A stretch of DNA of 37,601 nt, from assembly GCA_015493745.1 (NCBI GenBank), contig WGCN01000158.1, positions 1 to 37,601 on the forward strand, written 5' to 3'. The stretch's first letter is position 1, and every line of letters begins with the position of its first letter. Below the pieces are notes generated by a model. The model was not told the DNA's origin. It did no database searches and saw nothing but the letters and a program-made list of their open reading frames with translations. The translations under genes were made by a program, and so were the position numbers. Source of the DNA: Calditrichales bacterium. Lineage in GTDB: Bacteria; Calditrichota; Calditrichia; Calditrichales; J004. Below, in pieces: positions 2-15,942 of the stretch.

Positions 2-3000
2 TTGAGCGGCCGTGACACGGTCTTTATTTTATTTAGCGCCACCGATGTTAACAGCGGTTTGGATTTATTAAAACGGGACACGCTCACCTTTCTGTTGCAG
101 GAACGTTCACGCCTGCGCGTGTTAAGCGCCATCAGCGCGCCCCGGGGCGCGACGGACGGCTTTGTTTCCACCGGTCAAAAATTCGTACTGAAAACGGAAG
201 TGCGCAACGAAGGTGAAGCGGCCATTGACGGCAGCGGCACCCTGCGACTGGAAGCTTCCGGCGGATTACTGTTTGCCGCCACGGGTACGACCCGGCTTGA
301 GCATAACAGCATACGCGCCGCCGTATATCTTGATACGGTCATTGCGCCTGTCTCCGGAACAACCGGATGGCTGAGGGCGCGCATTGCCGCCGGTGAAACC
401 CCGTTGGATATGAACAGTCTGGATACGGCCCTGGTTGTCGGCGCCACGGACAGCAACAGTGTTATCCTGCAAAAGCGGGCCGATCTGTCGCTGCGTTTTA
501 TCATGCCCGACGCGGTGAAAGACAGTCTGATCCGGGCTACCGACCAATCCTTTGAGCTGCACGCCCTGGTCAGCAACAGCGGCGAAGCGGCCGTGGATAC
601 CAGCGGCGGCCGTCATCAGGTTAGGCTGGATATTTCGGGGACGGGCATGACCTTTGTCAATGGCGACCGGGCGGATAAATTTTTCAGCCTGAACGATACC
701 ATCCGCTGGCAGGTGCAAACCTCCTCTTCGGAGTTGAACGCCCCCTTTAGCGTGGCGGTGATTTCCGCGCCGCTGGACGTCAATGAGGAGGTCAATGCCT
801 TCCGTACGGTTGCTTCCGGGGTGGATTCGCTTATCTTAAGCGCGCGGCAGATCAATGATATTAACCTGACCACCTCCTTTGAAAACAACGTGCCCCTGGA
901 AGGGGATACATTGATCGTCTCCACCGATCAGGATTCCATTCTGGTACAGGCGAATGTGATTTTTGACCGGCAGTTGGATAAAAATAAAAAGGTGGTGCTG
1001 ACCCTCCCGGCCGGATACACATCCCAGGATGGTAACCTGACCCGCTTTGTCTCCGATGATTCCAGTCAGGTACAGGTGAAATGGTATATCAAGTCCAAGA
1101 GCCTGGCCGGAAACGCTCCGGATACGTTGCACATCCTGGCCAGCGGCGTCAGCACGGAAAACGGCAATCTGCTGCTGCAGGTGGCGGAAGAAAGGTATAT
1201 CCGCACCGTGCCCAAGGCCACCCTTTCCCTGAGCGTGCGCGTGGACGCCCCCCTGGGCGCCCTGGACAGCACCGTCTCCCTGGGGCAGGCTTTCCGTCTG
1301 CGTGGGGTGGTGCAGAACCTGGAGGGCGCTTCGCCTGTTTCCGGAAGCGGCGTGGCCGAGCTGAATTTTGACAACACCTATTTCAGTCTGATCGATTCAT
1401 CGGAAGTCGGCCTGGATAACAATCCTCAACGTACTTTTACCGTGGGGCAGCCCTTCTTCTGGTGGATACGTGCCGAGCAGACCACGCCGGGCGTTAACAG
1501 CATTGTGGAGCTGACCGCGCTGGTTCAAAAGGCCCTGCGTCAACAACGCCGGCGGGAGGTGCGCGATGTGGAGATGGTGGACGCCAAAGGCAATCCTGTT
1601 CCGTCCACAGCCGCCGGGAACAAGGAACAGCCGCCCGGAACGGTCGCGGAAAAACCGACCGCCACGGCGGTGGGCAGCGATCTGGTTGTGCGGCTAACGG
1701 AAGTACCCCTGGATGCCAACAGCGGTCAGGAAGCGGCGGTATCCAATACCAGCGATCTGCAAACCATGCGCGTGGAAAATCCGGCCACCATCGCCATTGG
1801 CGATATTGAAAGCCCGGCCACGGTCAGCACGGGGCAGACCTTTAGCGTAACGGTGCATGCCGGGGCCATGAGCGCCAACCTGGAAAACCCGCAGGCCATC
1901 GTGTTGCTGCCGGAAAGTTTTGAGCCATCCAGCTTTGTGCTGCCGGTGAACGCCACCACGCAAACGGCGGTGTTTGCCATCAATGTGCCGGCGGATTATA
2001 ACGGCCCGGAAACCGACAGTCTGCGTTTTGTGCTGGTGGGCATCGATAACAACACCAATGAGGTAACGGCGCGCAGCGAGGAGAAAAAGGTAGGGCTCAC
2101 CTTCCAGCGTCGCCCCAATCTGGTTATTAAATCCAGCATTGTCGCTCCGCAATCGGCGGCCCAGGGTATTTTATCCTTCGGCCAAAAAATCGAGTTGCGG
2201 GTCTGGGTGGAAAACAGCGCCAACGAGGGCGCCCTTTCCTACGCGGATATTACCGGAGAAGGCGTGATTGCCGTGGATTCCGCGTTGATAGCCGCGGATG
2301 GCTTTACGCTTGCGGAGGGCAGCGCCGCCGAACAGACCTTCAGCGGATTGGGTGAGGCCGAAGCCTTGCGCTGGGTGTTGCGCGCCCCGCAGGTTGAAAA
2401 AACCTATAATATTCAGTTTGCCATTAAAAGCCGTCCCAATGATGTGAACAGTCTGACGCCGGTCGACGTGAATGTCTCACAGACATCGCATCCGGTGCGG
2501 GTGAAGCAGAAGGAGATCACCGTCACCATGATCGACAGTCTGGTCGGTGGCGGCGGACTGATCCGGGGACAAACCAATCTGCCCATGCTGGCCTTTAATG
2601 TTTCCAACGAGGGTTATGGCGACAGCTTGTTCGTCAACGGGCTGACCATGGGGATATACGGTTCAAACGGAGTTATCTCCGATGAAAACCTTTTGAGCCC
2701 GGAAAGCCTGGTTAAGCTGTTTAATCGTTTCCGTATCGTAAACTATAAGCGCTTCCTTGAACTACAAAAAACAACGGGCGGCGAGCCGCAAACCCTGGCC
2801 GAAGTAACGGTGGACGCTTCCATGGGCAATCCGCTGGAACTGCTTTTTAATCAGGTGGAAAAACTCAGCATAGACCCCGACACCTCCGAAACGCTGGTGG
2901 TGCTGGCCGACCTGCAAAGCGACGCGCGCAGCCTCAGTTTCCGTGCCGTGCTCAACCAGCTCAACGCCTACGATGTGTCCGATACCATCGCCCTGGCCCT

Positions 3001-3385
3001 GCTGGATAAAAACGGCAATGACTTTGATCCCGGCAACCAGGAAGAGGCGGCGGTGTTGACGGTAATCCCGGATAATCCGGAAGAGGCCTTCAGCACCTAT
3101 CCCAACCCCTTTGGCCGCCGGCAGGCCTATGCCCGGATAAATTTTTACCTGACGGAAAACGCCGATGTGGACATACGCATCTTTACCCTGTTGGGTGAAC
3201 TGGTCTGGCACCGTCAGGAAAGCAACCTGCCGGGCAACCGTAACTACAATCATATTACATGGAACGGTAAAAACGACAAGGGACAAACCGTGCTGAACGG
3301 CGTGTATATCTGTACGATCCAAATTTCGCCGACCGGCGGCGGCCCGGCCAAGCGTTATATTACCAAAGTGGCCTATATAAAATAG
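2..3385 (+). CDS. Large secreted repeat protein with T9SS-type C-terminal sorting/FlgD-Ig-like domain (5'-truncated by the window edge)
   Basis: Long ORF open at the window start. Recurrent motif 'AP.(G/A)A.D...STGQ.F.L...V.N.G.A...GSG' roughly every 200-300 aa. C-terminus 'FSTYPNPFGRRQAYARINFYLTENADVDIRIFTLLGELVW...WNGKNDKGQTVLNGVYICTIQ...' is typical of a T9SS type A sorting domain. Confidence 0.85.
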   Translation: MSGRDTVFILFSATDVNSGLDLLKRDTLTFLLQERSRLRVLSAISAPRGATDGFVSTGQKFVLKTEVRNEGEAAIDGSGTLRLEASGGLLFAATGTTRLEHNSIRAAVYLDTVIAPVSGTTGWLRARIAAGETPLDMNSLDTALVVGATDSNSVILQKRADLSLRFIMPDAVKDSLIRATDQSFELHALVSNSGEAAVDTSGGRHQVRLDISGTGMTFVNGDRADKFFSLNDTIRWQVQTSSSELNAPFSVAVISAPLDVNEEVNAFRTVASGVDSLILSARQINDINLTTSFENNVPLEGDTLIVSTDQDSILVQANVIFDRQLDKNKKVVLTLPAGYTSQDGNLTRFVSDDSSQVQVKWYIKSKSLAGNAPDTLHILASGVSTENGNLLLQVAEERYIRTVPKATLSLSVRVDAPLGALDSTVSLGQAFRLRGVVQNLEGASPVSGSGVAELNFDNTYFSLIDSSEVGLDNNPQRTFTVGQPFFWWIRAEQTTPGVNSIVELTALVQKALRQQRRREVRDVEMVDAKGNPVPSTAAGNKEQPPGTVAEKPTATAVGSDLVVRLTEVPLDANSGQEAAVSNTSDLQTMRVENPATIAIGDIESPATVSTGQTFSVTVHAGAMSANLENPQAIVLLPESFEPSSFVLPVNATTQTAVFAINVPADYNGPETDSLRFVLVGIDNNTNEVTARSEEKKVGLTFQRRPNLVIKSSIVAPQSAAQGILSFGQKIELRVWVENSANEGALSYADITGEGVIAVDSALIAADGFTLAEGSAAEQTFSGLGEAEALRWVLRAPQVEKTYNIQFAIKSRPNDVNSLTPVDVNVSQTSHPVRVKQKEITVTMIDSLVGGGGLIRGQTNLPMLAFNVSNEGYGDSLFVNGLTMGIYGSNGVISDENLLSPESLVKLFNRFRIVNYKRFLELQKTTGGEPQTLAEVTVDASMGNPLELLFNQVEKLSIDPDTSETLVVLADLQSDARSLSFRAVLNQLNAYDVSDTIALALLDKNGNDFDPGNQEEAAVLTVIPDNPEEAFSTYPNPFGRRQAYARINFYLTENADVDIRIFTLLGELVWHRQESNLPGNRNYNHITWNGKNDKGQTVLNGVYICTIQISPTGGGPAKRYITKVAYIK

Positions 3386-3394
3386 GGTGAGACG

Positions 3395-5302
3395 ATGAAT
3401 AAAATGTTGAAAAACTTACTGATAATAATGTTGGCGTACGGAATGTTTGGCGCCGTTATGGCCCAGGAGGGCGAAGGTGGCACGGAGAGTGTGTTTAAGC
3501 TGGGTTTTGGGGCCCGGGCCCTGGGACTGGGGCAGGCCTATACGGCCATGGCTAACGATCCCACGGCGGTTTTCTGGAATCCGGCCGGGCTGGAGGGCAT
3601 CAACCGGCAAAGCGCTACTTTTTTTCACACGACACTTTTTACCTCCACCCAGTATGATTTTTTGGGCTATGCCTATCCCACGCTGGACTTGGGAACCTTC
3701 GGCTTTGGCATTGCCCGGCTGGGCATTTCGGATATCCAGGAACGGGATATCAACAATGTACCGCTGGGTAAGTTCTCCCATGATCAATACCGGGTTTATT
3801 TTTCCTATGCCAAGACCCTGTTCTGGAATCTGACGCCGGGTATTTCGGTACGATGGATACGCAACGGGTGGAACAACCTGGAAGAGGGCGATTTGACGGC
3901 CACCGGTATCGCCGCTGATTTCGGCCTGATGTACCGGCCCGACTGGATCGGCAACGCCTTTATACAGGACTGGTCCTTTGGCCTGAACGTGAAAAATGTG
4001 TTTGCCCCGCAACTGCGCGCAGGTAACTTGCTGGATGAGTATCCCCTAAACGCCCGGCTGGGTATCATGAAGAAAGTACGCTTCAGCGGGGGAACGGCCA
4101 TCAATATCCTGATGGATATCGACTATTCACAAAAAAGATCGCTCTTGTTTCATGCCGGTACAGAGTATAACTTCCAAAATCTCGGCAAAGTGCGCGTCGG
4201 TTATGACGGTCAGGCCCTCTCATTTGGCGCCGGGGTAGAGTACAGCAATTTCCAGATCGACTATGGTTACAGCGGCAGCGCCTACAATGATGTTTTTACG
4301 CCCACCCACCGTTTGTCGGTTTCCGTTAATTTCGGCATTACCCGTGACGATATGTTCCGTCTGGCCGAACTAAAGCGCATTGAGGAAGAAAACCGCATCA
4401 AGAAGGAAATACGGGAAGCGGACAAACGCGATTTTGTGGCCAGGCACTTGAAACAGGCCGATGAATATTTTGGCGAAGGGAAATACCTGGACGCCATCGT
4501 GGAGTATCAGCAAGTGATCAGCATGGATCCGTTTCACAAACGGGCCGGGGTGATGCTGGATTCATCCAATGCCCTGTTGGCGCGTGACTTTAACAAGCGG
4601 CAGTCGCTGGCGGTAAAAGAGGCACTGGATAAAGACCGGGCCGCCAACGACAGCATGTTCGTTCAGGAGCATTTTGAAAAGGGCCGCCTGCTGCTGGATA
4701 AAAAGCAGTTTGTGGAGGCGATGATCGAGTTTAATATCGCTTTGGAACGGGATCCTGAAAATCAAATCCTTAAAAACTCGATTGCCACGACGAAACGCCG
4801 AATAAGTGAAGAGGTCGGCAGCCTGGTGGCCAAAAGCCGGGAGCAGTTTAAAAACCAGAACTATGCCGAAGCCCTGCGTTTACTGGGAGATGCCCGTTTG
4901 CTGGGGGCGGATAACAGTCAGTTGCAAAACGAGATCGAAACCCTGGCCACGCGCATTCGGGTACAGGAGAACATCCAAAAGGGCCTGATGTTGTATGATG
5001 CCGGAGAATATCAACAGTCGCTCGATATTCTTTCCAAGGCGTTGGAATTGGATCCGCAAAACGAGCTGATTCGCCAGTATTATGAAAAATCAAAGCTGGA
5101 AACCATCAGCGGTCAGGATGAGATGGATCCGGAAACCGAGAAGAAATATCTGCGCGGCGTGGAAAGCTTCCTGAATGGTAACTACCGGGAAGCCATTCAG
5201 ATTTGGGAAGAGATACTGAAAGATCATCCCTATAACAAACGGGTGCTCAAGGGGATCAGCAACGCGCGTGAGCGTATGAAAAATACCAAGGCGTCAAAAT
5301 AA
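3395..5302 (+). CDS. PorV/UPF0164-like outer-membrane beta-barrel protein fused to C-terminal TPR repeats
   Basis: Signal peptide, then 'FKLGFGARALGLGQAYTAMANDPTAVFWNPAGLEGI' (PorV/UPF0164 hallmark), barrel region, then TPR-like repeats ('AIVEYQQVISMDPFHKRA', 'AMIEFNIALERDPENQ', 'SLDILSKALELDPQNELI', 'AIQIWEEILKDHPYNKRVL'). Confidence 0.85.
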   Translation: MNKMLKNLLIIMLAYGMFGAVMAQEGEGGTESVFKLGFGARALGLGQAYTAMANDPTAVFWNPAGLEGINRQSATFFHTTLFTSTQYDFLGYAYPTLDLGTFGFGIARLGISDIQERDINNVPLGKFSHDQYRVYFSYAKTLFWNLTPGISVRWIRNGWNNLEEGDLTATGIAADFGLMYRPDWIGNAFIQDWSFGLNVKNVFAPQLRAGNLLDEYPLNARLGIMKKVRFSGGTAINILMDIDYSQKRSLLFHAGTEYNFQNLGKVRVGYDGQALSFGAGVEYSNFQIDYGYSGSAYNDVFTPTHRLSVSVNFGITRDDMFRLAELKRIEEENRIKKEIREADKRDFVARHLKQADEYFGEGKYLDAIVEYQQVISMDPFHKRAGVMLDSSNALLARDFNKRQSLAVKEALDKDRAANDSMFVQEHFEKGRLLLDKKQFVEAMIEFNIALERDPENQILKNSIATTKRRISEEVGSLVAKSREQFKNQNYAEALRLLGDARLLGADNSQLQNEIETLATRIRVQENIQKGLMLYDAGEYQQSLDILSKALELDPQNELIRQYYEKSKLETISGQDEMDPETEKKYLRGVESFLNGNYREAIQIWEEILKDHPYNKRVLKGISNARERMKNTKASK

Positions 5303-5314
5303 ACGGATTTTGTC

Positions 5315-8300
5315 ATGTTTAAAAATGTCAAAAAAGAAGAGATAACCATACCGGCTCAAATGAGCTATCTGATACAGATACGTGAATTCATTGAGCATAT
5401 AGGTAAACGTTATCGCTTCTCCGACAAGGTCATCAACTCCTTTAAGCTGGTGGTGGATGAAGCCTGTACCAATGTGATCCGTCATGGTTACCGCGATATC
5501 AAGAACGGTGAAATTCAACTGAAGGCCATCATCCGGCGTATGAGCCTGACCATCGTTATTATCGACCAGGGCATCAGTTACGATCCGCGCCAGGCCAACA
5601 CACCCGATCTGGCCAAATATGTGGATATCGGTAAAAAAGGTGGTCTGGGTATTTTGATGATGCGCAAGCTGATGGATGATATCCATTATGCGGTCACCGA
5701 GCGGGGTAATGAATTCCGGCTCACGAAATATCGCGAGCAGTCCTCGGGAAGCAAAGTCAATCAACTATGGCACACGCTGACCATGCGTGCCAAGTACTCG
5801 CTGGTTTCGGCCCTGTTGATTACGGGTATCATTTCCGCCATATTCAGTGTTTTTTTGTTTAACCTGTCCGATGATGTACGTGACGAGGCGCTGGTTACGG
5901 CGGCCAGTAATGCTAAAACACTGGCGGACAATTCCATCGATGATTTTATCAGAGACCAATATATTCCGCTTTTTGAAAAAACACGTTCTCTTAAACAAAA
6001 TCACCCCGACTTGATAAACGAAGCCTTTATTGTGGATGTCAATGGCCGGGTCATCGCCCGCAGTACCCTGGTCAAGGATACGCCTTTGAAGCGCATCTAT
6101 ACCCTGCCCGACAGCGGAGTGGTCGTCGATACGGTGAATAACAGCGTGGTGTTGCATTATGCCCTGAACGATACCATGATGATCTACGATGTGTACAGTG
6201 AAATCCGCGAAAGTATTTCGGGTCGGGGCGCTTTGCTGGGGGTGGCGCACATCTGGGTACGGGATAGCACCATTGAAAAGATTATTCACCAGCGGCGCAT
6301 GATATTACTGATCGTTCTGCTTATTTTGCTCATTGTGGGCTATGTGGGTTCCTTTTTATTGGTTACCCAGGTGCTTAAATCCTTTCATAGCCTGGCAGAT
6401 TGGGTGCGCCAGGTGGTGCGCGGCAAGGTGGATCAGGACGAGATTGATATCGACGCCTCCGATGAGATAGGTGAAATCGCCCAGGCCTTTAATGAAATGA
6501 CCCAGAAGTTCCATGCCGCCCAGGTAAACCTGATGGAGCAGCAAAAACTGCAAAAGGAACTCCAGGTGGCGCAGGAAATCCAGCAAATGTTGTTGCCCAG
6601 CGATTTCCCCAGCGTGGAAGGCTTTGATATCGGCTCTTATTATGAAGCGGCCAAGGAAGTGGGCGGCGATCTTTTTGACTTTGTGGAGGTGGATGAGGAG
6701 TCCGTGGGCATCATCGTGGCCGACGTGTCGGGTAAGGGGGTTCCCGGATCGCTGATTATGACCATGATCCGTACTGCCTTGCGTCTGGAGTCCCGGGGCA
6801 ATAAAAACCCGGCCGATGTGCTGGCCAAGGTTAACCGTTTTGTTACCGACGACATGAGACGCGGCATGTTTGTGACCATGTTTTATGTGATTCTCGATTC
6901 CCGTAACCGGGTGATCCATTACGCCAGCGCCGGGCACAATCCGATGATTTTATTCCGTTCGTCGGCGAAGCAGACATACTATCTTAACCCCTCGGGATTT
7001 CCGGTGGGTATACAACTCCCCGATTTAAAACTTTTTGACAATAAAATACAAACCGATTCCATACGGTTGCGCGAAGACGATATCCTGGTGCTCTACACGG
7101 ACGGTATTACCGAGGCCATGAACCATCAGCGGGAGTTATACCGGGAAGAGCGCTTTCTGGAATCGATTCGTAACAACGGCCATCTGGATGTTTCCGAATT
7201 TGTGAAAAGCATCAAGGATGATCTGAAAAACTTTACCGGTGGCGCGCAGCAAAACGATGATATCACCTTTGTGGCCATCAAGGAAAAAATGATGTCCGGT
7301 GAGGTGATCTATAAAACCCACAAACAGATGGTGGAGCTTATCGAGCAGGGCTACCGGGTAAAGGATGCCTGTGAGAAGCTGAATATTTCGCAATACCAGT
7401 ATTACAAATATAAAAATATCGTGGATGAAGGCGGCCTGGAAGCCTTAAGGTCTTTTCTGGACGGGCAGGACTACATCGAGAAGAAACATCTCTCCATCGA
7501 GATGAAGGCCAAGATATTCGATATTATTCGCGAGAACCCCAAGCTGGGGCCGAAAAGCATCGCCAAACTGCTCAATACCGAGAAGTACGGCTTTGTGAAA
7601 ATAGAAGAGCGGCGTATCTATAACGAATTGATCAAGCTCAGGCTTAATACCTATGCCTTGAGAAAACGCTTCCTGGAAAAAGGCAAGAATAAACGTCTCA
7701 AGCAACCGGGAACACCTCTGCTGACACTGGACGGTAAGGTCATTCTCGATTTTGAATCCTCCGAAGGGGAAATCGAAAAGCGCACGGGAGCAACCGCCAA
7801 GCCGCCAATGCCGTCACACAACCTGCCGCGGGAAGAAGAGAAAAAAACTTTTGTGCGCATAATTAAGAGCGCGCCCGCAGAGGGGACGAAAAAGGACACG
7901 CCGAAAGCGGTTGCTGTTGCTCCGGCTGAAAAGGCGGAAGGCACGGAAACAAAAACCGTTGCCGCGGAGGAAACTGCGGTTGCCGTTAAGGCGGAACAGA
8001 CGCCAACCCCGCAAGAATTGAGTACCCGGGTGGCGGAGAAAAGTGATGCCGGGCTGATAGAGATGTTCTATAATGCCTGCCGTGATGACTTTGAGGCCCT
8101 GAAAAAACACAATGGGGAATTAATAGAAAATACCAATAATACCGACACTTTAAGAAAAATGAATTTAATCCTGAAAATTGTGACAAAAAATCCGATATTG
8201 AAAAAAATGCCGGAGCTTTCACAGTTGATGCAACAGGGACAACAAGCTATCGAATTTTTACAGTCACACTCCTCCTCGATGGATAACAAAGCATTGAGGC

Positions 8301-8530
8301 AGCGCACAGAAAGCGTGTTGAAATTCTTGGAAAAAGAAAATATATTAAAAGCTGGCCATAGTATACTGGAACAGGTAAATTCTCTGGCCCTGTTACATAA
8401 AAAATGGGAATTGAATCCGGCTCAAACGGCAAAAGCCACTTCACTGGCGGATGTTCGTAAAAAAATCGCGCGTAAAAATATTGTAAAAAATAAAGCGCTA
8501 CTTAAAGAAAAGCCGAAGAAGGACAAATAA
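5315..8530 (+). CDS. Multidomain regulator: RsbW-like HATPase - TM sensor - HAMP - SpoIIE/PP2C phosphatase - tandem HTH - charged tail
   Basis: N-term 'VVDEACTNVIRHGYR...GKKGGLGILMMRKLMDD' (anti-sigma HATPase); two TM segments flanking an extracytoplasmic domain; HAMP; 'QEIQQMLLPSDFPSVEGFDIGSYYEAAKEVGGDLFDF...ADVSGKGVPGSL...YTDGITEAMN...QNDDITFVAIK' (SpoIIE); then HTH 'VKDACEKLNISQYQYYKYKNIVDEGGLEALRSF' and wHTH 'IIRENPKLGPKSIAKLLNTEKYGF'. Confidence 0.9.
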   Translation: MFKNVKKEEITIPAQMSYLIQIREFIEHIGKRYRFSDKVINSFKLVVDEACTNVIRHGYRDIKNGEIQLKAIIRRMSLTIVIIDQGISYDPRQANTPDLAKYVDIGKKGGLGILMMRKLMDDIHYAVTERGNEFRLTKYREQSSGSKVNQLWHTLTMRAKYSLVSALLITGIISAIFSVFLFNLSDDVRDEALVTAASNAKTLADNSIDDFIRDQYIPLFEKTRSLKQNHPDLINEAFIVDVNGRVIARSTLVKDTPLKRIYTLPDSGVVVDTVNNSVVLHYALNDTMMIYDVYSEIRESISGRGALLGVAHIWVRDSTIEKIIHQRRMILLIVLLILLIVGYVGSFLLVTQVLKSFHSLADWVRQVVRGKVDQDEIDIDASDEIGEIAQAFNEMTQKFHAAQVNLMEQQKLQKELQVAQEIQQMLLPSDFPSVEGFDIGSYYEAAKEVGGDLFDFVEVDEESVGIIVADVSGKGVPGSLIMTMIRTALRLESRGNKNPADVLAKVNRFVTDDMRRGMFVTMFYVILDSRNRVIHYASAGHNPMILFRSSAKQTYYLNPSGFPVGIQLPDLKLFDNKIQTDSIRLREDDILVLYTDGITEAMNHQRELYREERFLESIRNNGHLDVSEFVKSIKDDLKNFTGGAQQNDDITFVAIKEKMMSGEVIYKTHKQMVELIEQGYRVKDACEKLNISQYQYYKYKNIVDEGGLEALRSFLDGQDYIEKKHLSIEMKAKIFDIIRENPKLGPKSIAKLLNTEKYGFVKIEERRIYNELIKLRLNTYALRKRFLEKGKNKRLKQPGTPLLTLDGKVILDFESSEGEIEKRTGATAKPPMPSHNLPREEEKKTFVRIIKSAPAEGTKKDTPKAVAVAPAEKAEGTETKTVAAEETAVAVKAEQTPTPQELSTRVAEKSDAGLIEMFYNACRDDFEALKKHNGELIENTNNTDTLRKMNLILKIVTKNPILKKMPELSQLMQQGQQAIEFLQSHSSSMDNKALRQRTESVLKFLEKENILKAGHSILEQVNSLALLHKKWELNPAQTAKATSLADVRKKIARKNIVKNKALLKEKPKKDK

Positions 8531-8555
8531 CGCTCTTTCCCTTAAGGAGGATTGA

Positions 8556-9251
8556 ATGGAAGGCATTCAGGTTTCAACTGAAGTCAGTGGTGGAAGAAAT
8601 CACATCTCGATTATAAAAGTTGGGGGGTATATTGATACAACAACGTCATCCGAGCTGGAGCGTGCCCTCAATTCTCTGCTGAAACAGGGACGGTTTTTTA
8701 TCATAGTGGATTTGGGTAATGTGGACTATATCAGCTCCGCCGGCTGGGGGATTTTTATCAGTGAAATAAAGTCGATTCGTGAAAACGGCGGCGATCTGAA
8801 GCTGGTGCGCATGGTGCCCGATGTGTATGAGATTTTTGAACTGCTGGAATTTCATCATATCCTCGATGTTTATGACAAGGTGGAAGACGCGGTAAATAAG
8901 TTTGAAAGTTCCGAAGCGGCCGGAGAACCGGTGGCCAAGGAGATATCCCTGCCCAAGGCCGATGAGCCGGTGGAGGAAGTGGTCGCCGCTCCCCGCCCCG
9001 CTACCGAGCCGGTAACCAGCGATGTGGTGGAAACAACCCAGCAGATCAGCTTAAATGACATGACCCTGCAGGATAAAATAAAAAATATCGTAAAAGAAAA
9101 TCCAGAGTTCGGCAGCCTGAAAATTAAACGTGAATTAAATACGGCACGATACGGATTTACACGTATCGGTTGGTTTGCCGTTCGCTCGGAACTGGCCAAG
9201 TTAAAACTGAACAAGCGTAATAAGCGCTATGAGTTTGCCACATCCGCATAA
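8556..9251 (+). CDS. STAS-domain (anti-sigma factor antagonist-like) protein with C-terminal winged-HTH-like domain
   Basis: 'IIKVGGYIDTTTSSELERALNSLL...FIIVDLGNVDYISSAGWGIFISEIKSIRENGGDLKLVRM' is STAS. C-term 'LQDKIKNIVKENPEFGSLKIKRELNTARYGFTRIG' resembles the wHTH of the preceding CDS. Strong RBS AAGGAGG at 8544-8550. Confidence 0.9.
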   Translation: MEGIQVSTEVSGGRNHISIIKVGGYIDTTTSSELERALNSLLKQGRFFIIVDLGNVDYISSAGWGIFISEIKSIRENGGDLKLVRMVPDVYEIFELLEFHHILDVYDKVEDAVNKFESSEAAGEPVAKEISLPKADEPVEEVVAAPRPATEPVTSDVVETTQQISLNDMTLQDKIKNIVKENPEFGSLKIKRELNTARYGFTRIGWFAVRSELAKLKLNKRNKRYEFATSA

Positions 9252-9310: not shown

Positions 9311-9958
9311 ATGTTTAGAAAAACACTTGTCACCGCATTCTTCCTTATTGTCAGCCTTCAGGCCCAGCCTGTGGCCCCCGTACGCATACATTATCAGGGC
9401 GGAGGGGATTGGTATGGAAATAAAACCACATGGAAAAACATACTCAACGAAGGGCGGCATCTACTCAATTTACCGACAGCCCCGAAGGAAACGGCGGCTA
9501 AAATAAAAGACCCGGAATTTTCACAATCGCCGTTTGCTTATCTTGCCGGGCATGGCAACGTGGTCTTCGATGATCAGGAGGCGGCCATATTGCGCCGCTA
9601 TTTAATCCGCGGCGGCTTTTTGTTCGCCGATGATGATTACGGTATGGATCCATCTTTCCGTAAGGCCATGAAAAAGGTTTTTCCCGAGCTGGATTTTGTC
9701 CCGCTGCCCTTCAGCCATCCCATTTATCATACGGTCTATGATTTTAACAACGGTTTACCCAAGGTTCATGAACACGCCGGTGGCCCGCCACAGGGGTTGG
9801 GGTTGATTTATAAGGGGCGTCTGGTTTGTTTTTATTCATTTAATACGGATATTTCGGACGGTTGCGAGGATGCTCAAATTCATAAAGATCCGGAGAATGT
9901 GCGCAGGCAGGCTTTGAAAATGGCCTTAAACATACTTGTTTACGCGCTTACCTATTAA
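9311..9958 (+). CDS. DUF4159 domain-containing protein
   Basis: Signal peptide 'MFRKTLVTAFFLIVSLQAQP', then 'RIHYQGGGDWYGNKTTWKNILNEG...FAYLAGHGNVVFDDQEAAILRRYLIRGGFLFADDDYGMDPSFRKAMKKVFPE', typical of DUF4159. Confidence 0.8.
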   Translation: MFRKTLVTAFFLIVSLQAQPVAPVRIHYQGGGDWYGNKTTWKNILNEGRHLLNLPTAPKETAAKIKDPEFSQSPFAYLAGHGNVVFDDQEAAILRRYLIRGGFLFADDDYGMDPSFRKAMKKVFPELDFVPLPFSHPIYHTVYDFNNGLPKVHEHAGGPPQGLGLIYKGRLVCFYSFNTDISDGCEDAQIHKDPENVRRQALKMALNILVYALTY

Positions 9959-9962
9959 AATC

Positions 9963-12900
9963 ATGACACATACGCAGTTTATTCAAAAACTATACAACCT
10001 GGCCGGGCGACACTACCGCTTGCATTTGCTGGGGCGTATTGTATCCTGGCTGCTGATATTTCTTTTCTCCGGGCTGGGGATGTCCCTGCTGGACAGCATG
10101 GTGCATTTTTCAAGGATCAGCCGTTGGGGATTTTTTACCTTGCAGGTACTGTTGATGGCCTTTCTGTTTATTGAAATGATCTGGCCCGCGGTACGTAAAA
10201 ATTATCGGTTCAGAAAATCAGGCGAATTATCCGCCTTTGCCCGCTTGTCGGACCGTCTTACGGAGAATAAGGATATTTGGGTCAATACCGCCGAATTGAT
10301 CGAACAGTATCAGGCCGGTGGTGACAACAACCCTTTTCAGGAAGCGGCCATAAACCGCCTGATTCCCCAATGTGACTTTTCCGCCTTGAAAAGGGCACTG
10401 CCCTTGAAAAAATACCTGCCCGCCTATTCCCTGCCGGTGGTCCTGTTGTTGAGCAGCCTGTTTCTTTATGGTCTGATCGGCCCCTCTCTGGGGATATCCG
10501 TGCTTAGAATGGTGATGCCCTGGGGTATGTTCGCCGCTGTACCCGCCTACAGTTTTGAGGTGGCTCCCGGTTCGGTAACCGCTTATACGGGGGATGATCT
10601 GAAGATAACGGCCGGCTATCGGGGCCCGCGCGCCGGAGGCATGTTGCTTTGGAAGGAAGAGGGCGCCCGGCGCATGTCTTATCCCCTTGTCAGGGCCGGT
10701 GTGGCAAGTTATACGCTGACGCTGAAGAACATTAAAAAAGATTTCCGCTATTGGCTCAGCGCCACGGAGATGGAAACCGGGGACTATAAAGGACACATTG
10801 TTTCCGATACCTTCCGGGTGGTTGTGCTGGACCCTCCCATGGTAAAGACGGCACAAATCAAGGCTTTTCCTCCGGCTTATAGCGGTCTGCCCGGCTCATC
10901 GTTTGACCTGAGCGATACGCGCTATAGCCTCTTGCCCGGAACGGAGATCCAATTCAAGCTCACTGCCAATAAGGCTTTGCGTGCCGCCGCCCTGCAATTT
11001 TCCGATTCCACGATATTGAATTTAGATGTACACAATTTTACCGCCGAGGGCCGTGCTGTGTTTACCCGTTCCCGGCAATACCGCTTTAATCTTTTATCCA
11101 TGGATTCACTCACCAACCGGCAAGCCGTTCTTTTTCATGTTGATATGCTGGAAGACCGCCCCCCCTATGTGGAAATTGTGCTCCCCGGTACGGATGTGGA
11201 AGCTCAGCCGGAAGATATACTGGCCCTTGAGGCTGCTGCCGGTGATGACTTTGGCGTTTCGGCTCTTACCCTGCGCTACCGGCATCTGGCCGCCGGAGAT
11301 ACCGGCGTGTGGCGAAAGCGGCCTTTTCAACTGCTCCGTGAAAACGGTGAGACCCGTGGGCGCTTACTGTTCGATTTTTCGGATTTAGCCATCGCTTTTG
11401 GAGATGAAATAGAATATTATGCCGTGGCCCGGGACGGAAATGTTATCACCGGACCGGGCAAGGCGGAAAGTGCCCGTTATAAAGTGATATTTCCCTCATT
11501 GGATGATCTGTTCCGGGATTTTACCGAAAAGACACGGGATCAAAATGAAAAGATGGAAGACATCTCCGGACAGTCCGAGGAGTTGAAGAAGACTCTGGAG
11601 GAGATACAGCGTGACCTGAAACGGTCGCAAAAAATGGACTGGGAAACGAAGAAGCGTATCGAGCAGACGCTGGAGGAACAAAAAAAGCTCCGGGAAAAGG
11701 TGCAAAAAATCGAGCAGGAATTACAGGAGATGGTAGAGCGGCTGGAAAATAAGGATATGATAAGCGAAGAGTTGATGCAAAAATATCAGCAGCTGCAGGA
11801 GATGTTTCGCCAGATCGCACCGCCGGAGTTGATGGAAGCCATGCGCAAGTTACAACAGGCCATGGAAAAGTCGGACCCGGCGGAAGTGCAAAAAGCCCTG
11901 CAATCCTTTAAGGAGAATCAGGAGAACTTTAAGCAAAATCTGGAACGAACCCTGGAGCTGTTTAAGCAAATCCAGATGGAGCAGCAGTTGCAACGTTTGG
12001 CGGATCAGGCGCGGGAGCTGCTTGAAAAACAAAAACAGATTACGGAAGAGCTGAATAAGAACAGCGATGATGCCGGCCGGATGCAGGAACAACAAACCGG
12101 GCAATTGAAGCGGCTGGAAGCTTCCCTGAAGGAGATGATGGATAACCCGCGTATGCAATCCTTTAAGGAAGCCATGCGTCAAATGGAAGAGGCCCGGAAA
12201 AATATGTCCCGGAATCAGTTGGCCCGCCAAAGCGAGGAAATCCGCCAAAAGATTGAACAGGGACAGCAGGAACAGGCCGGGGAACAATCGCAGGCCCTGC
12301 AAAAGGATATGGCCGCCATGCAAAGTCAGCTGCAAAGCAGCCTCAACAGCATGCAGCAACGCCATAAACAAAAAGTAGAATCCAGGATGCTGGCCATAAC
12401 CGGGGATCTGCTAAAACTGTCGTTCGAGCAGGAAAGGCTTCAGCGGCGCAGCCGCAGTGCCTCGCAGGTGGATGATGAGTTGCGCGATATCGCCCGTAAG
12501 CAGGCCCGGGTTCAGCAAAATTTACAAAAGACCATCGGCGAAATGATAGAACTGTCCAAGCAGACCTTTTTTATGGAACAGAGCCTGAACCGCAACATGG
12601 CCATGGCACAAAGTCAAATGCGCAAGAGTCTGGACGATTTGAGCGAGCGCCGGGCCATGCCGGCCGCTCAGAGCCAGCGCAAGGCGATGGAGGCTTTAAA
12701 CCGCAGCGTTCAGGGCATGCAGCGCTCATTGTCCCGTATGGAAAAATCTTCCAGCGGTACGGGATTTGAACAATTGATGGAGCAATTGAAACAAATGGCC
12801 GGCATGCAGGGAGGGCTTAATGGTGAAACCATGGGGCTGTTCAACGCCCAACAAGGGAACCGGGGACGGTTGACGCCGGATCAGCAGGGCAGGCAGCGGC

Positions 12901-13349
12901 GTCTGGCCGCGCAACAACAGGCCCTGAAACAGGCCATGGAGGAACTGGCCGGTGAGATGGGTAACCGGGGCGATGTGCTGGGCCGTTTGGGGGAACTCAG
13001 TGAAGAGATGGATAAGGTGGTGCAGGATCTGCTGAAAAAGGGCGTTTCCCGTAAAACCGTTGAACGGCAGCAGCGCATTCTTTCCCGTATGCTGGATGCG
13101 CAGAAATCGGCCCGGGAGCGGGAATACTCTAAAAAACGGCGGGCCGAGCGGGCCAAAAAATATCAGGCGGTCGATCCGCGCAGGCTGACCCCCGCTGAAA
13201 ATGCCTATTTAAAGCAGCTACAGGAGGCTCTGCAAAAATCATATAACGAAGGGTACGCACCGGAATATCAGCAGATGATTGAAGCGTATATCCATAAGTT
13301 GATCAACGAAAAACAACAACGGCGGGCTGGCGATGGCAGGACTCGTTAA
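9963..13349 (+). CDS. DUF4175-like membrane protein with very long Gln/Met/Glu-rich coiled-coil region
   Basis: ORF listed from 9936; ATG at 9963 (MTHTQFIQKL) follows the DUF4159 stop. N-terminal TM helices, Ig-like middle, then ~600 aa of coiled coil. Position after DUF4159 fits. Confidence 0.7.
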   Translation: MTHTQFIQKLYNLAGRHYRLHLLGRIVSWLLIFLFSGLGMSLLDSMVHFSRISRWGFFTLQVLLMAFLFIEMIWPAVRKNYRFRKSGELSAFARLSDRLTENKDIWVNTAELIEQYQAGGDNNPFQEAAINRLIPQCDFSALKRALPLKKYLPAYSLPVVLLLSSLFLYGLIGPSLGISVLRMVMPWGMFAAVPAYSFEVAPGSVTAYTGDDLKITAGYRGPRAGGMLLWKEEGARRMSYPLVRAGVASYTLTLKNIKKDFRYWLSATEMETGDYKGHIVSDTFRVVVLDPPMVKTAQIKAFPPAYSGLPGSSFDLSDTRYSLLPGTEIQFKLTANKALRAAALQFSDSTILNLDVHNFTAEGRAVFTRSRQYRFNLLSMDSLTNRQAVLFHVDMLEDRPPYVEIVLPGTDVEAQPEDILALEAAAGDDFGVSALTLRYRHLAAGDTGVWRKRPFQLLRENGETRGRLLFDFSDLAIAFGDEIEYYAVARDGNVITGPGKAESARYKVIFPSLDDLFRDFTEKTRDQNEKMEDISGQSEELKKTLEEIQRDLKRSQKMDWETKKRIEQTLEEQKKLREKVQKIEQELQEMVERLENKDMISEELMQKYQQLQEMFRQIAPPELMEAMRKLQQAMEKSDPAEVQKALQSFKENQENFKQNLERTLELFKQIQMEQQLQRLADQARELLEKQKQITEELNKNSDDAGRMQEQQTGQLKRLEASLKEMMDNPRMQSFKEAMRQMEEARKNMSRNQLARQSEEIRQKIEQGQQEQAGEQSQALQKDMAAMQSQLQSSLNSMQQRHKQKVESRMLAITGDLLKLSFEQERLQRRSRSASQVDDELRDIARKQARVQQNLQKTIGEMIELSKQTFFMEQSLNRNMAMAQSQMRKSLDDLSERRAMPAAQSQRKAMEALNRSVQGMQRSLSRMEKSSSGTGFEQLMEQLKQMAGMQGGLNGETMGLFNAQQGNRGRLTPDQQGRQRRLAAQQQALKQAMEELAGEMGNRGDVLGRLGELSEEMDKVVQDLLKKGVSRKTVERQQRILSRMLDAQKSAREREYSKKRRAERAKKYQAVDPRRLTPAENAYLKQLQEALQKSYNEGYAPEYQQMIEAYIHKLINEKQQRRAGDGRTR

Positions 13350-15942
13350 TTTTCCGGGCCGGACAACGAGCGTAATGCGCTCTGTTTACGGATTGCTGCT
13401 CCTGTTCAGCATGGCGGTCATGGCACAGGAAGTTTTTGTCAAGGAGGCGCGTTTCCAAAACGGGCATATTGAGGTGATCTCCTCGGATAATTTTTTGCCG
13501 GCGCCAAGGATTGCCCTGGTGCTTAGCGGAGGTGGTTCCCGGGGAATCAGTCATATTGGCGTTCTGAAAGTATTGGAAAAAGCCGGTATTCGCCCCGATC
13601 TGATAGTCGGCACCAGTATCGGCGGGGTGGTGGGTGGTCTGTATGCGGCGGGCTATTCCGCCGGGGAAATAGAAACCTTTTTCCATACCATCGACTGGGG
13701 CGATATGTTCCGCGATACCGCCTCCCGCTCCAACCTGTTTCTGGAACAGAAGAATGAACAGGATCGCTATATTGCCTCCATCCGCCTGGAAAACTGGCAG
13801 CCCTATATCCCCAATGCCGTAACACCGGGACAAAAGGTGCTCAATGTCCTCTCCGATCTGTTCATGCTGGCGCCTTATCAGGTAAAGAACAGCTTTGATG
13901 ATCTAAAGATACCCTTTCGCGCCGTGGCTACCGATATTGTCCATGGCCGTAAGATTGTATTGGATCGCGGAAATATTGCCGCCGCGTTAAACGGCTCGCT
14001 GGCGGTGCCCCTGCTTTTTTCTCCCGTGAGCTGGGATACGCTTTTACTGGTGGATGGCGGGGTTAAGGCCAACTTGCCCGCCGGGGTGGCCCGGGAGTGG
14101 GGAGCGGATATTGTCATTGCCGCCGATGTGAGTGCCGAACTGCGTTCCCGGGATGAACTCAGCGCCCCCTGGGAGGTGGCCGATCAGGTTACAACCATTA
14201 TGACCGACCGGAATAACGTTAAGGAATATGGCGATGTGGATATACTGCTTACGCCCGTTTTGCCGCGGTCAACCAATACGGATTTCAGCAAGGTGGATGC
14301 CCTGATCCGCGCCGGTGAAGAGGAAGCGCAAATCAAGCTGGAAGAGATTCATAAGCAACTCAAGTCGTTTGAAAAGCAAAGCGCCCGTTTTTTGACGCGC
14401 GAACTGATCAATGGCCATAAGATTGACAGTCTGTCCGTGTTGACCCTCTCCCGCCGCATGGAGCGCTGGGTACTGGACGGCGGTTTTTCAAAGGTGACGG
14501 CGCGCTACTCGGCCAAAAGGCGGGAACTGCACTACTTTTTTGAATCCTACTCTGCCATTGATACCATACTTTTTCAGGGTAATGTTTATGTCAGCCATCA
14601 TGAATTGTTGGACTCCATGCGCACCAAAGTGGGGCAGGTACCCATAACACGTATATTGAATGATGATTTCGACCGTTTGCGAAAAATCTATCATGGTCGT
14701 GGCTATTCCCTGATGGAAATCGAGGATGTCACATTTATAAACGGTGTGCTGTCCATCCGTATCAACGAGGGGCAGGTTGGCCGCATCATGGTATCGGGGA
14801 ATAAAAAAACGCGGGACTATGTGATCAGCCGCGAGTTTCAGATCCCCCGGGGGGCCATCTTCAACTGGCTGGATATCAAGAAACGGCTGGCCAACCTGTA
14901 CGGCACGCAATTGTTTAAACGGGTTACGGCGGATGTACGCCGTCATGGTCAGGCCGCCGACGTGGAAATTCATGTTGATGAAAAACCCTCCGTACGCGTG
15001 CAGTTTGGCGGTAAAGGCGATAATGACCGTCTCTTTCAGGCTTATCTGGAGCTTTCCGATGAAAACCTGTTGGGGCGCGGCGTTAAGGCCAAAGCCCAGG
15101 CCCGGGTGGGTAACCGCGATGGCTGGCTGGGGTTGCGCTTTCGCTCGGAAAGGATATTCACCTCTCTGTTCACTTTTCGTGGCATTTTGTTTTACTCCTG
15201 GGAGGTAAACCCCCGTTTTTGGCATACACCGTATCAGGGGCGCTACCGGGAAGAACGGGCCGGTATTCGGCTTTTGCTGGGCCGACAGGTGGAACGCTTC
15301 GGTCTGGTCTCCGCCGAAATTAAGGCACAACGCGTTCGCAATACGGTTGAGGAGGGTCTGTTTTCGCAGGAACGTACCCTGCAGCTACGATCCTTTGCCC
15401 TGCGCTCGGTAACCGATAAACGCGACCGTATCGATTTTCCGACCAAGGGTGAATACAATTATTGGGAATGGGAAAGCGGAAATACGGTGCTGCTGCAAAG
15501 CCAGCAGGGCTACAGCAAAATCCGTTTACATCTGGAAACCTATTCACATTTGTTCAATGCCAACCATGTTTTACACCTGAGATTTGATGGCGGGCTGGCC
15601 GATATCTCCACACCCTTTTCGGAATATTTTCGTATCGGTGGTTTTCGCCAGTTTTACGGATTGCTGGAAAATGAGCGTTACGGCAGACAAATGCTTATCG
15701 TCAGTGCTGGCTACCGCTGGCGGCTGCCTTTCAAGATTCTGACGCCGGTTTATCTTGGCGTGCGGTATGATCTGGGGAATGTCTGGCAGCAACCGGTATT
15801 ATCCTTAAGAACCTCGGAGCTGCTGGCTGCCAGTGGTGTCTCCCTGGGCTGGGAGACTTTTCTGGGCCCTTTGAATATCGCCTGGGGGCAAAATGCCTTT
15901 GGCCGTAAACAGTTCTATGTCTCCTGGGGATTTAATTACTGA
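13333..15942 (+). CDS. Patatin-like phospholipase fused to POTRA and BamA-type beta-barrel
   Basis: 'RIALVLSGGGSRGISHIGVLKVLEKAGIRPDLIVGTSIGGVVGGLYAAGYS' (GxSxG lipase), 'VDGGVKANLP' (DG dyad), POTRA-like 'GNVYVSHHELLDSMRTKVG', C-terminal surface-antigen barrel. True start may be the ATG at 13375. Confidence 0.88.
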   Translation: MAGLVNFPGRTTSVMRSVYGLLLLFSMAVMAQEVFVKEARFQNGHIEVISSDNFLPAPRIALVLSGGGSRGISHIGVLKVLEKAGIRPDLIVGTSIGGVVGGLYAAGYSAGEIETFFHTIDWGDMFRDTASRSNLFLEQKNEQDRYIASIRLENWQPYIPNAVTPGQKVLNVLSDLFMLAPYQVKNSFDDLKIPFRAVATDIVHGRKIVLDRGNIAAALNGSLAVPLLFSPVSWDTLLLVDGGVKANLPAGVAREWGADIVIAADVSAELRSRDELSAPWEVADQVTTIMTDRNNVKEYGDVDILLTPVLPRSTNTDFSKVDALIRAGEEEAQIKLEEIHKQLKSFEKQSARFLTRELINGHKIDSLSVLTLSRRMERWVLDGGFSKVTARYSAKRRELHYFFESYSAIDTILFQGNVYVSHHELLDSMRTKVGQVPITRILNDDFDRLRKIYHGRGYSLMEIEDVTFINGVLSIRINEGQVGRIMVSGNKKTRDYVISREFQIPRGAIFNWLDIKKRLANLYGTQLFKRVTADVRRHGQAADVEIHVDEKPSVRVQFGGKGDNDRLFQAYLELSDENLLGRGVKAKAQARVGNRDGWLGLRFRSERIFTSLFTFRGILFYSWEVNPRFWHTPYQGRYREERAGIRLLLGRQVERFGLVSAEIKAQRVRNTVEEGLFSQERTLQLRSFALRSVTDKRDRIDFPTKGEYNYWEWESGNTVLLQSQQGYSKIRLHLETYSHLFNANHVLHLRFDGGLADISTPFSEYFRIGGFRQFYGLLENERYGRQMLIVSAGYRWRLPFKILTPVYLGVRYDLGNVWQQPVLSLRTSELLAASGVSLGWETFLGPLNIAWGQNAFGRKQFYVSWGFNY

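Follow-up and report, generated by a model that had tools for sequence, protein, structure and literature searches.

A partner-switch-like locus of Calditrichota whose phosphatase and STAS proteins share an IS481-type helix-turn-helix domain

The phosphatase and its STAS proteins

The window, a stretch of 37,601 nucleotides of Calditrichales DNA, encodes a large phosphatase and, starting 25 bases after it on the same (+) strand, a protein hereafter called STAS1 (Table 1). Domains, homology, co-distribution, gene neighbourhood and helix-turn-helix (HTH) folds were all computed. From its N-terminus the phosphatase comprises an RsbW-type HATPase domain, membrane segments, a HAMP domain, a SpoIIE/PP2C domain, two IS481-type HTH units, the motif PGTPLLTLDG and a variable tail, while STAS1 consists of a STAS domain, an acidic linker and the HTH domain that it shares with the phosphatase. 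The membrane segments (residues ~160-185 and ~328-352) were read by eye and not computed; with them inserted, the phosphatase would be a membrane protein.

Table 1. Features of the locus
Feature	Position	Strand	Length	Evidence or remark
PorV/PorQ-family protein with TPR	3395..5302	+		directly upstream of phosphatase
Phosphatase	5315..8530	+	1071 aa	ORF list; Pfam/NCBIfam; conservation
HATPase_c_2 domain, RsbW/SpoIIAB-like serine kinase	5348..5728	+		Pfam 2.2e-26; RsbW crystal chain 6m36_A 3.6e-16
HAMP domain of phosphatase	6359..6508	+		Pfam 4.5e-8
SpoIIE (PP2C-type) phosphatase domain	6695..7282	+		Pfam 6.4e-51; 1 of 11 in genome
First HTH (HTH_23/HTH_28 type), phosphatase only	7325..7450	+		Pfam above cut-off on segment; AlphaFold
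Second HTH (shared domain), phosphatase copy	7496..7684	+		alignment; AlphaFold; NCBIfam IS481
PGTPLLTLDG motif after HTH pair	7706..7735	+		near-invariant in Calditrichota and KSB1 phosphatases
STAS1 protein	8556..9251	+	231 aa	ORF list; Pfam; AlphaFold
STAS domain of STAS1, RsbV/SpoIIAA class	8595..8891	+		Pfam 1.2e-19; Foldseek
Ser61 codon of STAS1	8736..8738	+		aligned with SpoIIAA Ser58; invariant in 78/78 STAS proteins
Shared HTH, STAS1 copy	9060..9248	+		alignment; AlphaFold

The components of a partner switch can be recognized in this pair of genes: the HATPase domain is, by homology only, an RsbW-type kinase, the top Foldseek matches of the STAS fold are RsbV and SpoIIAA, and Ser61 provides the phosphorylatable serine. 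The catalytic parts of the set look intact. The same genome encodes a second tagged STAS protein, STAS2 (271 aa, L004:7484-8299), which lies in a polysaccharide-export operon. The 910 aa that STAS2 would have at another locus (L092) are spurious, being due to a masked stretch of N. In all, the genome has 11 SpoIIE phosphatases and 12 STAS proteins, of which only the phosphatase described here, STAS1 and STAS2 carry the shared domain, and no further IS481-like copy scores in this genome.

The sequence upstream of the phosphatase gene (2-5302) also encodes a protein whose C-terminal region is of the T9SS type; genes for DUF4159, DUF4175 and patatin-Omp85 proteins follow STAS1 (9311-15942), and the two DUF genes are almost constant at Calditrichota loci and rare at KSB1 loci. 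Relatives of the PorV-family TPR protein adjoin the phosphatase in Calditrichota, in KSB1 and in the one member of a third phylum that was checked. A search of the window and of two relatives for Rfam RNA families returned none.

Homology, fold and ancestry of the shared domain

The C-terminal domains of the phosphatase and of STAS1 form a gapless alignment of 57 residues, with a local score of 106 (z = 15) against a mean of 28 for shuffled sequences and a best score of 53 in 3000 shuffles. An earlier, sequence-only reading of this DNA had proposed that the two C-termini are homologous, and both peptides that it quoted are indeed present. It spoke of a phosphatase and STAS pair; both proteins do carry the domain, but STAS2 makes the set a trio within the same genome, 14 of about 63 alignment columns being invariant among the three copies.

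Structure prediction with AlphaFold gave confident HTH folds in both proteins, as had been anticipated: two HTH units in the phosphatase (pLDDT mostly above 90), with helices 10-26, 31-38 and 42-71 in the first of them, and a STAS fold plus an HTH in STAS1 (pLDDT about 95). The domain had, however, been described as winged, a description that the models do not support: the HTH in them is helical, a further helix is added at its C-terminal end, and a beta wing is missing. The additional HTH that had been placed ahead of the shared one in the phosphatase was recovered with Pfam families HTH_23 and HTH_28, both of which pass their cut-offs in a scan of this segment by itself.

The suggested resemblance to transposases of the IS481 type was borne out. 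The phosphatase segments match the NCBIfam IS481 transposase family NF033577 in 69 of 69 cases (best E 7e-20), and they do so with its N-terminal part only, the match ending at profile position 124 of 284. The phosphatase thus has the bipartite N-terminal HTH of IS481-family transposases, with the same order of units and the LNTR..R motif. It differs from these enzymes in having no DDE catalytic domain, in the replaced start of its recognition helix and in being fused to signalling domains; no transposase catalytic family (DDE/rve) was found among the Pfam and NCBIfam matches of the phosphatase or STAS proteins. Searches with the shared domain also retrieve genuine IS481 transposases from an unrelated genome (L190, L191). 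The G369 matches outside the group are genuine IS481 transposases and were set aside as not belonging to the system.

A sequence search of the PDB with the HTH segment gave nothing significant, and a Foldseek search with the HTH pair gave weak matches only, with TnsB and Pax on top, IstA lower and none at E < 0.05; these matches serve as a hint only. In a tree of 85 shared domains (65 columns, weak split support) the phosphatase copies, together with those of transposases, fall apart from the STAS copies, and any order of HTH capture read from it would be a suggestion. The PGTPLLTLDG motif is absent from those phosphatases of G175 and of the third phylum that were inspected. The idea that it is a relic of the start of the transposase catalytic domain was dropped on account of this absence and because its spacing is off by one.

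Distribution, gene neighbourhood and the A run

A profile built from the three sequences matched 41 of 41 genomes of the Calditrichota class and 0 of 20 outside it; an improved profile matched 8 of 345 further genomes, one of the eight through real transposases. Another of the eight belongs to the KSB1 phylum, where the domain was found in 81/82 genomes, mostly in three copies; this phylum includes KSB1 records, G386 and the named KSB1 contig L135 agreeing in match coordinates and frame length. In the third phylum a STAS-type or linked copy is present in 100/119 genomes, the phosphatase copy of the HTH being sometimes reduced or lost. At least three phyla have retained the HTH-tagged arrangement. 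A survey of related genomes, which the sequence-only reading had called for, therefore shows that the C-termini are related beyond the initial pair and that the fusion persists in relatives. Of the 80 best loci, 73 pair the tagged phosphatase with an adjacent STAS gene (median gap 81 bases); the named loci come from Calditrichota and candidate division KSB1. In a small separate phylum (G175), a STAS protein of 379 aa bears the shared HTH twice, and its gene adjoins a Wzc-type gene (L183:8680-9816).

The position of the genes points to polysaccharide export. STAS2 adjoins Wza-type (Poly_export) and Wzc-type genes, usually together with a sugar transferase (Bac_transf), in ~25 of 27 loci. In most third-phylum loci a diguanylate cyclase gene comes right after the STAS gene, and in one typed locus (L207) the STAS gene is followed by Wza-type and chain-length (Wzz-type) genes. 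From this placement of STAS2 beside Wza/Wzc and from the third-phylum loci, I infer that the output of the module is the control of exopolysaccharide.

In two third-phylum families, the junction between the STAS and HTH parts is a run of A9-A11 in 45 of 45 loci (L206:6552, L207:6843, L216:657, L217:1960, L218 and L221-L260), these loci being related by descent, so that the counts are not independent. Ten of them read through the run from STAS into HTH without a change of frame. At the other 35 the STAS frame reaches a stop after the run, and a different frame encodes the HTH (-1 in 32, +1 in 3); this HTH frame is open in 35/35 split genes, with 0 stops over a mean of 36 codons, and the other two frames meet a stop in 70/70 cases. 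As a background, 31 runs of the A9-A11 type occur in 1.48 Mb. A run of A9 is a known signal of transcriptional slippage in dnaX of Thermus thermophilus (PMC1088944), and what is found here has the same makeup: a run of A9 or more, at a fixed place, followed by a conserved domain into which an alternative frame stays open. Gene fission as an explanation of the standalone third-phylum HTH genes was given up, the conserved A run and frame favouring slippage. As in dnaX, long and short products are predicted, the optional part being the transposase HTH: programmed slippage would yield bare and tagged STAS protein from one gene, so that the HTH module would be optional and dosed. Unlike dnaX, the STAS1 gene of the window has no such run, its longest being A6.

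What the shared domain may do

The STAS proteins of a partner switch are usually bare and work through an exchange of protein partners. The present set resembles the RsbU/RsbW/RsbV and SpoIIE/SpoIIAB/SpoIIAA switches of Bacillus in its PP2C phosphatase, its RsbW-like ATPase and its STAS proteins with a phospho-acceptor serine. It departs from them in the fusion of kinase and phosphatase in one membrane-type protein, in the transposase HTH on phosphatase and STAS, in having two likely STAS substrates, one of them in an exopolysaccharide operon, and in the apparent lack of a linked sigma factor. A search of an open-access library turned up no account of a partner switch with HTH tags.

The reading I prefer, tentatively and without going so far as to call it probable, is that of a partner switch for exopolysaccharide or surface functions in which the IS481-derived HTH has become a private protein assembly or docking module. 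A single membrane sensor, with its kinase-like ATPase and its opposing PP2C phosphatase, would set the phosphorylation of two STAS targets, STAS1 next door and STAS2 from the operon with the sugar-transferase, Wza and Wzc genes. The DNA-binding half of an IS481-type transposase would have been taken up by an ancestral phosphatase, the second HTH of the captured pair being also joined to the STAS substrates. The main role of the HTH would be to bring the right STAS proteins, of the 12 in the cell, to a common partner, and the phospho-serine would decide between release and engagement. This scheme is favoured by the confinement of the domain to one of 11 SpoIIE and two of 12 STAS proteins, with no other IS481-like copy in the genome, by its conservation in the three phyla and the adjacency of phosphatase and STAS1 genes, by the linkage of STAS2 to Wza/Wzc homologues and of the third-phylum genes to diguanylate cyclase and Wza/Wzz-type genes, by the intact kinase and phospho-serine signatures, and by the predicted ability of some lineages to make STAS proteins with and without the HTH. 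A point against the scheme is that its exopolysaccharide output is drawn solely from gene neighbourhood.

The residues of the HTH itself bear on its ligand. The start of the recognition helix, Thr-Ser-Ser-Ala in the transposases, is acidic or variable in the phosphatase, Gly-Trp-Phe in STAS1 (Gly-Trp-Trp in the third phylum) and Gly-Ile-Phe-Lys in STAS2. Such a conserved hydrophobic head in the STAS copies suggests a protein partner, and protein rather than DNA would then be the main ligand. Yet the aromatic residues are compatible with DNA contact, and the mean net charge of the domain, +3.4 in the phosphatase, rises to +8.3 in STAS1 and +9.8 in STAS2, a strongly basic character like that of DNA binders, which allows a DNA ligand. 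Since the STAS HTH persists where the phosphatase HTH has been lost, the phosphatase HTH cannot be its only ligand; this persistence also weighs on the docking scheme.

In a rival reading, the HTH still binds DNA, the STAS proteins are phosphorylation-gated transcription factors and the HTH pair of the phosphatase keeps the enzyme near the same DNA; STAS2 would then regulate the exopolysaccharide operon in which it sits. I regard this as a serious possibility, albeit a somewhat doubtful one. It accords with descent from the DNA-binding half of a transposase, with TnsB transposase and Pax paired domains as the best, weak, fold matches, with the basic STAS domains and with the retention of the STAS HTH where the phosphatase copy is gone. 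It fits poorly with the DNA-reading helix positions, where STAS proteins of different phyla have conserved hydrophobic residues and the phosphatase has acidic or variable ones, with the lower charge of the phosphatase copy and with a phosphatase that is a HAMP-type membrane protein. A fuller version, in which STAS regulators built from a domesticated IS481 domain bind DNA under phosphorylation control and act on exopolysaccharide operons without a sigma factor, some lineages adjusting through A9-A11 slippage how much of their STAS binds DNA and how much is bare, seems to me possible but unlikely. That the domain is a homotypic dimerization tag only, coupling phosphatase to STAS substrates, is improbable: such a tag would be expected on the enzyme and exactly its likely substrates, as is seen, every other STAS and SpoIIE protein of the genome being without the domain, but the surfaces of the phosphatase and STAS copies have diverged, and the STAS HTH is still fused at a third-phylum locus whose phosphatase has none (L205) and still encoded beside HTH-less enzymes in the slippage-lineage locus pairs examined. 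The sequence-only reading had left the choice between a switch acting on DNA and a dimerization tag; homology, IS481 origin, HTH fold and persistence agree with it, whereas a plain tag fails for the lineages with an HTH-less phosphatase. Finally, the fusion might be a neutral, functionless relic of a transposon insertion, as its clear transposase ancestry would permit, but almost all genomes of the three phyla have retained it, with an uninterrupted reading frame and with invariant residues particular to each subfamily, which effectively refutes this idea.

In this locus a sensor enzyme and its likely substrates have a common transposase-derived module, which several phyla, most of them represented chiefly by uncultured genomes, have retained. 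It offers a case of transposase domestication inside signalling and a testable case of the insulation of one switch where 11 phosphatases and 12 STAS proteins coexist; in some relatives, slippage would decide whether the module is attached to STAS.

The closest analogues are SypE/SypA and SiaABCD. SypE of Vibrio fischeri is a bifunctional serine kinase/phosphatase acting on the STAS protein SypA in biofilm control (PMC4517449, PMC8256260), and the likeness lies in the single bifunctional enzyme and in the polysaccharide locus that harbours the STAS gene. SypE belongs to the response regulators, however, and the STAS protein SypA is bare, with no HTH tag, whereas Pfam finds no receiver domain in the phosphatase, which has HAMP and membrane segments mid-protein instead. 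SiaABCD of Pseudomonas aeruginosa includes a HAMP and PP2C sensor phosphatase in a partner switch for biofilm (PMC7647112, PMC8457831). It shares with the present set this type of sensor phosphatase and, in the third phylum, the linkage to a diguanylate cyclase; it differs in its separate kinase SiaB, its cyclase SiaD and the lack of a transposase HTH, and, unlike it, the Calditrichota and KSB1 loci have no adjacent diguanylate cyclase. At third-phylum loci such as L196-L199, L202, L209, L214 and L215 there is a conserved gene order of phosphatase, a MinD/BcsQ-like ATPase where present, STAS with HTH, and diguanylate cyclase.
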